Assembly: GCF_004785795.1 (NCBI RefSeq) | Contig: NZ_SRRO01000001.1 | Span: forward strand, 1,364,001 to 1,428,000 | Reading direction: 5' to 3' | DNA: 64,000 bases | Origin: Nocardioides eburneiflavus | GTDB lineage: Bacteria > Actinomycetota > Actinomycetes > Propionibacteriales > Nocardioidaceae | Shown here: positions 4,142 through 7,889 of the stretch, piece by piece | Layout of the letters: each line of letters begins with the position of its first letter | How positions within the stretch are numbered: the first letter of the stretch is position 1 | Made by a program: the position numbers and the translations under genes | Notes under the pieces: generated by a model | The model's database searches: none | Told to the model about the DNA's origin: nothing | The model's input: the letters and a program-made list of their open reading frames with translations, nothing else

Positions 4142-4606
4142 ATGGCCCAGACCTTCACCACCGAGATCCAGGCGCGCTACCGCGACATCAACCTCGCCGG
4201 GCACGTCGACAACGTCGAGGCCGTACGGGTGCTCGACGAGGCCCGGTACGAGTTCCTGAGGTTCGCGCGGCTCCCGGGCCTGCCCGACGGGGCGGCCGGC
4301 CTGCTCCACGGGGTGGACGCCGGGGTCTCCGAGCTCGTGGCCTCGCAGACGATCGAGTACCACTCGGAGATGCGGTTCGTGCCCTACCAGCCGTTCCTCG
4401 CCTCGCTGTGGGTGTCGCGGATCGGCCGGTCCTCGTTCACCGTCGCCGCCGAGCTGCGGGTCGAGGCCGGCGGCGGCCCGGCCGCGGTCTGGGAGTGCGT
4501 CAACGTCCTGTGGGACCACCGCGCGCAGTCGGCATGGTCGGTCAGCGACGCCGTGCGCGCCGACCTCGAGCAGTACGCCGGGGACCCGGTGGCCTTTCGG
4601 CGCTGA
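4142..4606 (+). CDS. Hotdog-fold acyl-CoA thioesterase
   Basis: A 154-residue single-domain 4HBT-type hotdog protein. The N-terminal RYRDINLAGHVDNVEAVRVLDEAR matches the thioesterase active-site helix, including the aspartate in RYRD and the asparagine of HVDN. The IEYHSEMRFVPYQPF strand is also typical. It would hydrolyse acyl-CoA to free acid and CoA in the cytoplasm. It is divergent from DUF3151, with only 37 bp between starts. Chain-length specificity is not visible. Confidence 0.85.
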   Translation: MAQTFTTEIQARYRDINLAGHVDNVEAVRVLDEARYEFLRFARLPGLPDGAAGLLHGVDAGVSELVASQTIEYHSEMRFVPYQPFLASLWVSRIGRSSFTVAAELRVEAGGGPAAVWECVNVLWDHRAQSAWSVSDAVRADLEQYAGDPVAFRR

Positions 4607-4632
4607 CCCGAGCCCCCGCTGCCCCGGCGGCG

Positions 4633-4692
4633 GTCGAGCGGACCTACGTCCGCTCGACGCACGCCATGGCGTACGTCAAGCGTCCACAGCGG
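4633..4692. repeat. Left 60-bp inverted repeat bounding the AbiEi/DUF559-like gene
   Basis: Reverse-complement of this segment matches 5896-5955 at 53 of 60 positions by hand alignment. The outer end is itself a palindrome: GTCGAGCGGAC, loop CTAC, GTCCGCTCGAC at 4633-4658. It lies between the thioesterase stop and the stop of the enclosed gene. Confidence 0.85.
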
Positions 4693-4714
4693 TGTCATGG
4701 TCCGCGCAACCACA

Positions 4715-5767
4715 TCAGGCAGCGGTACCCACGTCAGGCACCCAGAGACGTGGCGAGCGTCGCCGCGGATTGGCCTGCGCGAACCGGCTCTGCTGCGGCG
4801 TCGGCTCACGACCGAACCGGGCCTCTGTGACGTCGTACTCCCGGCGAAGGCGATCACGAGCCCTGTCCCGGGCGGGACCGAAGCAGTCCGCCCAGACGAT
4901 CCGAGACATGCCGAAGCCTTCGGCGCAGATGTCCGTACGACGAGCCTGCTGCTTCCACACGACGGCATCCGCCGACTCGGACGCGACGCCCCCTTCCTCG
5001 ACGGGGACGAGCTTCAGCCTGCCTTCGCACTCGAACAAGTGGCGTCCGACGCGGATGTCGCACCAGACGGTCCGGCCTCCGGTGAGGCGCACCGCGAACT
5101 GGGTCTCCGTGACACCAATGTCCAACGACGCCACGAGCTCCCTGCCCAAGGTCTCGAGCACGGACTCGGCACCGGCGTCGGAGTCGGCGAGGGCCGCGCG
5201 CGCCTGAGCGATGTGCGGGTGGTGACGCATCCGCTCGAGCTCGGCCTCGAAATCGGGGTACGGGACGCCGAGTTGTCGTGCAGAGTCGATGGCCACCAGG
5301 CCGTGCCGGTAGCCGTGCCACCGCGCGATGTCGATGGCCGTACGGGCATACGACGTGGCCACCAGGTCGCCGACGCGCTGCACGCACAGCGACTGCAGGT
5401 CTCGATGTCGGGTGAGGCCGCTGTTGGTGCGCGTTCCGCGCGGTCCGTAGAGCGTGAGGTGGCTCGCGGGCGACGGCGGGTCGAGTGTGTCGATGGCGAG
5501 CAGCCTGGCCGCGGAGTCGTGGCTGAGGACGGCTGGGCGTCGGCTCGACAGGGCGGCGGCCCTGTCCTTGAGCATCCACCGGGCTCGAGCGTCCAGCTGC
5601 GCCAGTAGGGCGCGTTCGCAGTAGGTGCCACGCCGAACGACAGCCCATTCGCCGTCCGGTCTCGTCAAGGCCTTGATCTCGCGATCGGTGTAGCCGGCGC
5701 GCAGGGCCTGGCTGCGGGTGAAGATCCACCCCTGACGGGCAGCGACAGCGACGAGTGCAGGTCTCAT
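4715..5767 (-). CDS. AbiEi-like N-terminus + DUF559/PD-(D/E)XK-like C-terminus protein
   Basis: 350 residues. Residues 1-50 (GWIFTRSQALRAGYTDREIKALTR...WAVVRRGTY) form the winged-helix module seen in AbiEi-type antitoxins. The C-terminal third (about 195-300) looks like a restriction-endonuclease fold: a GAESVLETLGREL helix, then Asp237, Glu246, Glu248 and Lys252 in CDIRVGRHLFECEGRLK, which fits D-x(n)-E-x-x-x-K nuclease chemistry. Such proteins are common in Nocardioides genomes and are annotated only by domain. No AbiEii toxin gene lies next to it, so a classical toxin-antitoxin pair is not supported. The flanking inverted repeats suggest the gene belongs to a discrete DNA unit. DNA binding and cleavage are inferred. 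Confidence 0.7.
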   Translation of the reverse strand: MRPALVAVAARQGWIFTRSQALRAGYTDREIKALTRPDGEWAVVRRGTYCERALLAQLDARARWMLKDRAAALSSRRPAVLSHDSAARLLAIDTLDPPSPASHLTLYGPRGTRTNSGLTRHRDLQSLCVQRVGDLVATSYARTAIDIARWHGYRHGLVAIDSARQLGVPYPDFEAELERMRHHPHIAQARAALADSDAGAESVLETLGRELVASLDIGVTETQFAVRLTGGRTVWCDIRVGRHLFECEGRLKLVPVEEGGVASESADAVVWKQQARRTDICAEGFGMSRIVWADCFGPARDRARDRLRREYDVTEARFGREPTPQQSRFAQANPRRRSPRLWVPDVGTAA

Positions 5768-5895
5768 GGCGTCGACGATCGTCCTGTGCGACGAGTTGGC
5801 ACCAGCGTGCGGGCTGGTCGGTGTGGACGACCTGCTCGGAACGCACCCTGTGGATGATCAGCGGACAGGAATCTGGCTAGAAGGGCGCTCGACGT

Positions 5896-5955
5896 CCGCC
5901 GTGGACGCCTGGCGTACGGCATGGCGTACGTCGAGCGGACGATGGTCCGCTCGAC
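5896..5955. repeat. Right 60-bp inverted repeat bounding the AbiEi/DUF559-like gene
   Basis: Mirror copy of 4633-4692. The outer end is the palindrome GTCGAGCGGAC, loop GATG, GTCCGCTCGAC at 5930-5955; the inner part shares GTGGACGC and CATGGCGT blocks with the other copy. It lies 129 bp upstream of the enclosed gene's start and just past the stop of lysS. Confidence 0.85.
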
Positions 5956-5988
5956 CCGCCGAGCGGTCGGCGGGAGGAAGGCGTCGCG

Positions 5989-7716
5989 TCAGGCGCCGAG
6001 CAGCCGCCGCACCTTCTCGGGTCCGAGTGCCACCACGAGTGTAGGCAGGCGCGGGCCCCGCTCGGCGGAGACGAGCAGCTGGTAGAGCAGCCGGAAGAAG
6101 TCCTTCTGGTCGGCCTTCACCTGGTCGGTCGGCGGGTCGTCGAGCCCGAGGCCGCGCGCGACCTTGGGCACGCCGTAGACGACGCTCGTGGCGGCGTCGA
6201 GGTCGAGGTCGTCGGGCAGGCGGTCGAGGAAGATCCGCAGCCAGAGCTCCTCGTCCTCGCCCAGCGAGCCGAGGCGGTCGGCGTCGGGCTCGTCGCGCAC
6301 GGTGGTGCGTTCGTCGGCGGGCACGTGCTCCGCGGTCCACTGCATGGCCTTGGACAGGCGCGGCTCGAGGTCGGCCACGGAGTCGTGCGGGAAGCCCGAC
6401 GACTCCATGACGCGCGAGATGAGCTCGGCCGAGCCGGCGGTGACGTCGGCCACCGACGAGAGGGTGCGGAAGGGGACCGGCACCGCCGGCGTGGGCAGCC
6501 GGCCGGCGGACGCGGTCTCGGAGGCGCGGTGCCAGGCGAGGGTGGCGACGTCGGACTTCGCGGGGTCCGCGGCCTTGCGGCCCAGGGCGTCCCACTCGTC
6601 GTAGAGGCGGACCACCGCGGGGCCGAAGTCGATGTCGAAGGCCTGCGTCGGCGCGCGCCGGACGTAGAGCCAGCGCAGCATCGGCGCCTCGAGGATCCGC
6701 AGCGCGTCGGTCGCGGTCGGCACGCCGCCGGCCGACGAGGACATCTTCTGCACCCCGGCGAACCCGACGAACGCGTAGATCACCCGGGCCGGTGCGCGCC
6801 AGTCGAAGATCGAGGGGGCGATCTCGGTGCCGACGGTGTAGGACGAGCCCGGCGTCATGTGGTCGCGGCCCGCGGGCTCGAAGTTGACCGACTCGTAGGC
6901 CCAGCGCATCGGCCAGTCGACCTTCCACACGAGCTTGCCGTCGGTGTCGCTCGACAGGTCGGTGGTGCCCTCGAAGCCGCACGAGGAACAGGTGTAGGAC
7001 AGCGTCGTGGTGGCCTCGTCGTACGCCGTGGTGGTGACGGTGTCGCGTCCGCACTCGCGGCAGAAGGGGCGGTAGGGGAATCGGGCGATCGCGTCGGCCG
7101 AGGAGGCCGCGGTCGGGTCGCCCTCCTCGTCGTCCTCGTTGGCGACCGAGTCGGCGAGGTCGGCGGCCTCCTGCGCGGACGCGTCCTCGCCGGCCGTGAC
7201 CTTCTTGGTGCGGTGCTTGGCGAGCACGGCCTCGATCTCGTCGCGGCGCGAGACCGCGAGCAGGACCTGGTCGCGGTAGGCGCCGGACGTGTACATCTCG
7301 GTCTGGGAGATCTCCTCCATCTCCACCCCGAGCTCGCGCAGCGCCTCCTGCAGCGGGGCCTTGAAGTGCTCGGCCCAGCTGGGGTGGCACTCCCACGGGT
7401 CGGGCACCGCGCTCAGGGGACGGCCGATGTGGTCGGCCCACTCGGCCGGCACGCCGGCCGGCACCTTGCGGAACCGGTCGAAGTCGTCCCACGAGTGCAG
7501 GTGGCGCACCGGCACGCCGCGGCGCCGCAGCTCCTCGGCCACGAAGTGGGGGGTGATGAACTCGCGGAGGTTGCCGAGGTGGATCGGGCCGCTGGGGGAG
7601 GCCCCGGAGGCGACGGTGACCAGGTTCCCCTCGCCGGCGTGGCGTACGGCGTCGTCCGCCGCGCGCGTCACCCAGTCGACCGGCTCGCCCTGTCCCTGTC
7701 GTCCACCTCTCGCCAT
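5989..7716 (-). CDS. lysS: Lysyl-tRNA synthetase, class I
   Basis: A 575-residue class I (archaeal-type) LysRS that charges tRNA-Lys with lysine. The Rossmann nucleotide-binding motif appears as GASPSGPIHLGN (HLGN at 46-49) and the second signature as KMSSS at about residue 324. A CxxC...CxxC zinc-ribbon-like insert (CRECGRD...CSSCGFEG) sits between them. The start at 7716 (MARGGRQGQ) is chosen because a TAGCCT hexamer ends 7 nt upstream; an in-frame ATG at 7824 would add a non-conserved leader. Class I LysRS is found in part of the actinobacteria, while others use class II. No operon partner is visible. Confidence 0.93.
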   Translation of the reverse strand: MARGGRQGQGEPVDWVTRAADDAVRHAGEGNLVTVASGASPSGPIHLGNLREFITPHFVAEELRRRGVPVRHLHSWDDFDRFRKVPAGVPAEWADHIGRPLSAVPDPWECHPSWAEHFKAPLQEALRELGVEMEEISQTEMYTSGAYRDQVLLAVSRRDEIEAVLAKHRTKKVTAGEDASAQEAADLADSVANEDDEEGDPTAASSADAIARFPYRPFCRECGRDTVTTTAYDEATTTLSYTCSSCGFEGTTDLSSDTDGKLVWKVDWPMRWAYESVNFEPAGRDHMTPGSSYTVGTEIAPSIFDWRAPARVIYAFVGFAGVQKMSSSAGGVPTATDALRILEAPMLRWLYVRRAPTQAFDIDFGPAVVRLYDEWDALGRKAADPAKSDVATLAWHRASETASAGRLPTPAVPVPFRTLSSVADVTAGSAELISRVMESSGFPHDSVADLEPRLSKAMQWTAEHVPADERTTVRDEPDADRLGSLGEDEELWLRIFLDRLPDDLDLDAATSVVYGVPKVARGLGLDDPPTDQVKADQKDFFRLLYQLLVSAERGPRLPTLVVALGPEKVRRLLGA

Positions 7717-7723
7717 GCGCGCA

Positions 7724-7729
7724 AGGCTA
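7724..7729 (-). promoter_or_regulatory. -10 element of lysS (leaderless)
   Basis: TAGCCT on the minus strand, 7 nt before the ATG at 7716. It supports the shorter start for lysS. Confidence 0.5.
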
Positions 7730-7889
7730 TCGGTGGGTTCGGCGGTGCCGATGACCGGCGCCGGAGCCGTCCCCCGCGGCGGCTCCGACGCCATCTGCTC
7801 CTGTGGAGCTGCCCGGCCGCACACCCCCGCGGCGGCACCGGCGCCTCAGTATCCGTTGGCCGTTGGCTGCCACGCGGGTCGTGAGTGCC

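Follow-up and report, generated by a model that had tools for sequence, protein, structure and literature searches.

Palindromes bracket a family of AbiEi-like genes with a predicted nuclease domain in Nocardioides and other actinobacteria

In a 64,000-nucleotide (nt) stretch of the Nocardioides eburneiflavus genome (the window; contig NZ_SRRO01000001.1, positions 1,364,001 to 1,428,000; G000:C1:1364001-1428000 in our numbering, where G000 is this genome), a gene for a 350-residue protein lies alone between two inverted repeats that are themselves palindromic. It probably belongs to a large family of palindrome-bracketed nuclease genes of actinobacteria, which resembles the REPtrons, the palindrome-bordered transposase genes associated with repetitive extragenic palindromes (REPs), with an unrelated enzyme of AbiEi-Vsr type. 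The bracket recurs in most homologues and diversifies together with the protein, solo copies of the palindromes are dispersed through genomes, a site filled in one species is empty in others, and residues of the predicted active site are conserved.

The arms of the bracket (4632-4692 and 5896-5956 of the window) are 61 nt long, 89% complementary and separated by 1203 nt, in agreement with the 60-bp inverted repeats, paired by hand at 53 of 60 positions, that had been picked out from the letters of the DNA alone (the sequence-only reading). As had also been noticed there, the outer part of each arm is a palindrome, GTCGAGCGGAC-4nt-GTCCGCTCGAC, with an 11-bp stem (4633-4658, our inverted repeat I3, and 5930-5955), and a single plausible gene, at 4715-5767 on the minus strand, is enclosed. 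A second palindrome (GACGCACGCCATGGCGTACGTC in the first arm) follows the outer one within each arm (4656-4677, inverted repeat I6, and 5911-5932). Both arms belong to a longer dispersed repeat, R1, of which copy 1 spans 4621-4710 on the plus strand (89.9 bits) and copy 2, inverted relative to it, spans 5878-5967 on the minus strand (86.4 bits); the R1 covariance model giving these scores includes both copies. Rfam, at gathering scores, identified two tRNAs as the only known structured RNAs in the window. With the bracket score defined as that of the best inverted pairing of one 420-bp flank of a homologue locus with the other, we obtained 95 for the window locus, compared with a maximum of 52 for random pairs, 1.1% of which reached at least 36 (2369 positions from the window and three other loci).

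Bracketing is a general rule for the family, and the one-gene case in the window is an instance of it. We scored 110 of the 127 Nocardioides homologue rows, the remaining 17 being mostly low-scoring; 97 of the 110 loci scored at least 36, against the 1.1% of random position pairs. One of the 97 (L209) was discounted as a run of N inflates its score, and 95 of the resulting 109 loci scored at least 40, compared with 1 of 87 control genes taken from a crude gene caller. The random-position null and the control genes rule out a chance inverted repeat. In many cases the bracketing arm is in itself a long palindrome. The window's own genome has two further homologues: one (G000:C1:1512587) has a bracket made of a different palindrome, with a score of 98, and the other, which is partial, is without a bracket. 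A scan of genome contigs for this gene gave 3 loci. In a draw from across the phylum, 32 of 296 genomes, the window's own among them, have a homologue at E<=1e-20. Outside the window's genome, 54 rows gave 29 loci and, after two had been set aside because contig ends cut them, 27 usable ones, all from other genera. Nineteen of the 27 scored at least 34, the 99.9% point of the cross-genus null being 33.9 (n=684), and 17, spanning 17 genera and 12 families, scored at least 40. One pair outside the genus has arms identical at 56 of 56 positions, and the pair at another locus (L241) rests partly on C-rich sequence.

The breadth of this pattern bears on the plainest account of the locus, that an ordinary gene happens to sit between two bidirectional terminators, or is a passenger between copies of a REP or of a miniature inverted-repeat transposable element (MITE) moved by an unrelated transposase. 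Hairpins between convergent genes can terminate transcription and, as R1 is dispersed, two copies could flank a gene by chance. Such an account does not yield brackets at 95 of 109 homologues and 1 of 87 controls, the same layout with other sequences in 17 genera, or a separate palindrome for each paralogue; moreover, Y1 transposases, the one transposase type searched for, were found in none of five genomes. We consider it very remote.

The palindromes are gene-specific, and protein and palindrome co-diversify. Fourteen genomes contributed two bracketed paralogues each to the fetched loci, and in all 14 the arms within a locus were more alike than arms between loci (median 62 versus 19.5). Across 4186 pairs of loci, arms scored at least 40 in 97% of the 30 pairs with protein identity of at least 80% and in fewer than 0.1% of the 1557 pairs below 40% identity; this trend is partly plain common descent, and the paralogue comparison is the stronger test. 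A clean GTAAC...GTTAC form is found in 100 of 192 arms, 86 of them 68-70 nt long and 11 in the 105-109-nt bin, and many arms of the type captured by our 68-nt palindrome model, R2, start with GTAAC. Aligning 41 of the 45 68-nt arms (40 distinct; both arms of L193 and L205 were dropped) revealed two-sided changes in 18 of 24 pairs, with 198 such cells compared with 73 after shuffling. These arms were picked by their GTAAC pattern, so that the alignment is no independent test of the end motif; symmetry had a part in selecting the outer pairs and none in selecting the inner helix. R1 pairs also covary, less than those of R2 (27 two-sided cells versus 10 shuffled; pairs 5 versus 4.0).

The bracketed protein had been labelled DUF559/AbiEi-like, with a PD-(D/E)XK-like part. 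The AbiEi half of that label held: AbiEi_4 (PF13338) is the sole Pfam match (residues 5-50, 25.8 bits), and in an AlphaFold2 model (mean predicted local distance difference test score 92.7) residues 1-197 (5177-5767, minus strand), comprising a winged helix and an AbiEi C-terminal-like domain, take the overall fold of AbiEi-type antitoxins (6y8q, Rv2827c). The DUF559 half fell away, as the Pfam profile (PF04480) gave no match to the window protein at E<=0.001 and none to 77 family members at E<=0.01. The second half is predicted, by fold only, to be a Vsr/homing-endonuclease-like PD-(D/E)XK nuclease; its domain (residues 202-316; 4820-5164, minus strand) finds its best match for the modelled fold in the homing endonuclease I-Bth0305I and carries a conserved acidic/lysine site (E205, Q223, D237, E246, K252 and R276). 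Across 106 members, E205, D237, E246 and R276 never vary and K252 occurs in 99%. A family-profile search of the PDB returned no credible sequence relative, its hits being two designed repeat-protein chains (E 0.033 and 0.83). NCBIfam gave no match for the window protein and one weak match to 1 of the 77 members. Among plasmids no match to the window protein was found at E<=1e-5; phage records were outside that search.

As the sequence-only reading had remarked, there is no toxin partner at the locus: an AbiEii/DUF1814 toxin gene is not adjacent, a statement that covers the locus and not the rest of the genome. The neighbours are host genes outside the element, a 4HBT thioesterase-like gene on the side of copy 1 (4142-4606, plus strand; Pfam 4HBT_2) and lysS, for a class I lysyl-tRNA synthetase, on the side of copy 2 (5989-7824, minus strand; Pfam tRNA-synt_1f, 371.6 bits).

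Further copies of the bracketing repeat, which the sequence-only reading had proposed to look for, are present in the same genome. BLAST gave 16 matches, and the R1 model, built from 36 of 38 R1 copies (both omitted copies are in L036), gave 22, comprising 16 distinct copies and six antisense hits. The 16 copies are the two brackets, two arrays of three and eight solos, the lowest scores being near 49 bits among single copies and 35 bits for one array unit. The arrays are tandem, with a spacing of ~93 bp (G000:C1:4455952-4456227, in L010, and G000:C1:3845198-3845474). Among 147 congeners, 18 have an R1 match at E<=0.001, in four cases single and marginal. R2 has zero matches in the window's own genome, whose type is R1. 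Some R1 copies (L041, L043, L046 and L044) run on into tandem repeats of ~20-22 bp (AGCGACCACGG...GTC and related), and from these short runs the R1 family has an internal satellite-like part.

The gene keeps one genomic address among close relatives. Ten orthologues with at least 59% identity, the window's included, all adjoin lysS and have DUF3151 nearby, the neighbours in each case being lysS and 4HBT or DUF3151. R1 stands on both sides of the gene in all ten, with one weak arm in G030 (36.6 bits) and two in G005 (33.1 bits; 16.2 bits, E 0.056). Arms within one genome are 59-84% identical (mean 75%), and same-side arms of different genomes 67%. A lysS identity of at least 87% delimits a clade of 23 genomes (the next genome is at 76%), of which 9 have a close orthologue and 14 lack one. 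R1 occurs in all nine genomes with the orthologue (in G143 as its two brackets only) and in four of the 14 without it, the other ten having none (Fisher p=0.0016, uncorrected for shared ancestry).

In 11 of these 14 genomes the gap between lysS and 4HBT was inspected. It is cleanly empty in G163 (41 bp) and G098 (56 bp), supplying at the gene's own locus the empty sites that the sequence-only reading had named as a sign of mobility, and in G066 (70 bp) it holds degenerate sequence (R1 16 bits, E 0.04) that we tentatively read as a solo scar. The gap of G067, G074, G096 and G017 contains a different hairpin-like sequence, of GGCAGTTCG...CGAACTGCC type, perhaps another repeat family. In G110, G017, G117, G007 and G019 (L119-L122, L130) ~630-760 bp of other sequence resembles one shared small gene. 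In its behaviour the site resembles a hot spot of insertion.

Occupied and empty versions of a fixed site are also what a homing-type selfish gene would leave: a free-standing PD-(D/E)XK homing endonuclease would invade the lysS-DUF3151 site, and the palindromes would be repair by-products at its cut site. The fold match to I-Bth0305I and the presence of the orthologue in 9 and its absence in 14 clade genomes speak for this, as does the position of distant homologues, since among 20 such loci (L062-L081) six adjoin lysS and DUF3151 and one adjoins DUF3151 alone; the 13 with neither neighbour do not fit. Distances between genes follow distances between lysS sequences (r=0.83), so that spread between species at the site is not evident and descent at the lysS locus looks vertical, with losses, rather than mobile. 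To our knowledge, homing endonucleases are not usually accompanied by dispersed cognate palindromes. We therefore hold homing to be quite improbable.

Dispersal is broader for the R2 type. With matches counted on both strands and scoring limited to 34, R2 palindromes were found in 118 of 147 congeners, many with >20 matches. Of 98 gene-bearing genomes 94 have such palindromes and 76 have at least 10 matches, the corresponding numbers among 49 genomes that lack the gene being 24 and 8; such genome-level counts ignore shared ancestry, the genomes not being independent. For 21 R2 loci among the best matches the surrounding 3 kb was taken, and in 19 of them it contains no family gene. A crude gene caller based on GC3 (G+C at third codon positions) placed 23 of 25 solos outside genes. 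Twelve solos in G120 are identical to the bracket copy at 62-66 of 68 positions and have sharp ends, and nine in G109 are identical at 49-63 of 68 (the G109 site in L257 and that in L332 are one site). In a genome of another family (G266), the bracket palindrome occupies eight sites, two of them the brackets, and its sequence is shared by 0 of 6 related genomes.

Of the 21 oriented solos, 9 are flanked by convergent genes and 3 by divergent ones according to the same crude caller (9 of 47 gene pairs in the window are convergent), so that most are not at shared promoter regions. This bears on a reading of the locus as a regulatory module, in which an orphan AbiEi-type repressor or nuclease would have the upstream palindrome as operator and the downstream one as terminator or second operator, the scattered copies being further binding sites spread by another activity. 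AbiEi and Rv2827c are described as binding inverted repeats in their own promoters (PMC7319586), and one arm is indeed found on the upstream side and co-varies with the protein. The same palindrome is, however, on both sides of the gene, and regulation explains neither the dispersal nor the conservation of the nuclease site. We judge a regulatory module unlikely, if less so than homing.

An R1 solo of the window's genome at locus L009 offers a filled site with empty counterparts. It fills the gap between two genes, which the conserved ends suggest to be convergent and the crude caller gives as tandem. The solo is absent in G092, G158, G105 and G117, where the matched flanks are 10-43 bp apart, compared with 107-143 in G000. 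Over the loci of 12 relatives, R1 is present at this site in G012 and G022, and there is none above 14 bits in the other ten, several of which hold other sequence. At L258, the gene to the left of an R2 solo of G120 has a homologue in nine relatives, and in none of the nine does a counterpart of the solo stand beside it; this is weaker evidence, the right-hand side being mostly not conserved. Intergenic regions differ too much from species to species for target sites to be defined exactly. In 21 R2 solos (R1 solos were not tested) no consistent target-site duplication was found, the longest flank repeat averaging 3.2 compared with 2.9 for shuffled partners and one of the 21 having a 10-nt match. 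A transposon that makes such duplications, of MITE or terminal-inverted-repeat kind, was rejected for the R2 solos on this result.

The nearest likeness is to the REPtrons and their REP-associated tyrosine transposases (RAYTs, TnpA-REP). In the accounts of PMC8266576, the RAYT gene is mostly single-copy and palindrome-bordered, without evidence of its own mobility, and relatives of the bordering palindromes are reported to be scattered through the genome (PMC3733652, PMC8266576). Here, too, a gene is bordered by palindromes and the same palindromes are dispersed and extragenic, so that the analogy drawn in the sequence-only reading, to REP-associated transposases without a Y1 protein, fits. 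RAYTs, by contrast, are HUH tyrosine enzymes, unlike the AbiEi and PD-(D/E)XK folds seen here; REPs are 20-40 bp with a GTAG tag, whereas 86 of the 100 clean GTAAC...GTTAC arms are 68-70 nt, and the R1 type of the window is different again, GTAG being conserved at neither end of its 36 copies. A RAYT acting from nearby or elsewhere in the genome was rejected, as PF01797 (Y1/HUH) was found in none of five repeat-bearing genomes searched, with the control positive in 6 of 14.

Other systems share single features. In TIRtrons, too, an enzyme gene is enclosed by inverted repeats, some of which recur in the genome (PMC3733652); their TIRYTs, unlike the protein here, are HUH enzymes. CGTC-tagged REPs are presented in the same source as palindromes without a known dedicated transposase; they have no associated gene, whereas the repeats here have one. 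The type IV toxin-antitoxin protein AbiEi (6y8q, Rv2827c) shares the AbiEi_4 profile and the fold of residues 1-197, and differs in that here no toxin gene lies beside it, a nuclease domain is added and palindromes stand on both sides. From I-Bth0305I and Vsr the protein differs in being fused to an AbiEi half, alone between host genes and linked to palindromes. A search of open-licence literature, over titles and the starts of abstracts, found no paper linking AbiEi or DUF559 genes to bracketing palindromes.

For a REPtron-like family, the following route may be envisaged. AbiEi antitoxins are reported to bind two 23-bp inverted repeats 3 bp apart (PMC7319586), a geometry that, by analogy, is not far from that of these palindromes. 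Because those antitoxins bind paired inverted repeats, the AbiEi half may bind its cognate palindrome, and the nuclease half could nick or cut it, or its hairpin or cruciform form. Repair or strand transfer would then put copies of the palindrome, and rarely the gene, at new intergenic sites. The pair in the bracket would serve as source and reference. The gene would remain at one locus by vertical descent and sometimes be lost, possibly leaving a solo scar. Of the earlier suggestion that the protein recognises or disperses its own flanking palindromes, the association stands, and it is from this association that we infer recognition; the gene itself looks vertically inherited and not mobile. 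Neither a lack of further copies and empty sites nor a family mostly without the repeats, the outcomes that the sequence-only reading had set against itself, was encountered: all ten close orthologues (weakly in G005) and most of the distant homologues examined have a matching pair, the latter each with its own, and empty sites occur at the locus of the gene and at that of a solo.

Several observations weigh against a family of this kind. Binding, cleavage and copying of palindromes by the protein are inferred from association, and the nuclease assignment draws on the fold of a predicted model with no credible sequence relative in the PDB. Brackets fall below 40 at 14 of the 109 Nocardioides loci and, outside the genus, below 34 at 8 of 27 and below 40 at 10 of 27; the clean GTAAC...GTTAC form is limited to its 100 arms, and consistent target-site duplications are missing from the R2 solos. 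Thirteen of the 49 genomes with no homologue at E<=1e-20 have at least 6 R2 matches (G063, G080, G158, G017, G020 and 8 others), for which divergent homologues, past loss or another mover is needed. G066, G067, G092 and G019 have R1 without a close orthologue, so that loss or action in trans must be assumed.

More broadly, we see an even chance that these genes and repeats form a phylum-wide class of palindrome-dispersing systems, convergent with and unrelated to RAYT/REP, in which a protein of AbiEi-Vsr/homing type recognises its own palindromes of ~50-110 nt and propagates them through actinobacterial genomes. The spread of bacterial palindromic repeats, REPs included, is described as poorly understood (PMC8266576), and for one large REP class no dedicated enzyme is reported as known (PMC3733652). 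If such a class is real, a second, unrelated gene family would be tied one-to-one to its own palindromes, and this lifestyle would have arisen more than once. Proteins now named hypothetical or AbiEi-family antitoxin would gain a testable substrate, the bracket naming the DNA to try, and the REP-like repeat population of many Nocardioides genomes (118 of 147) would be accounted for.
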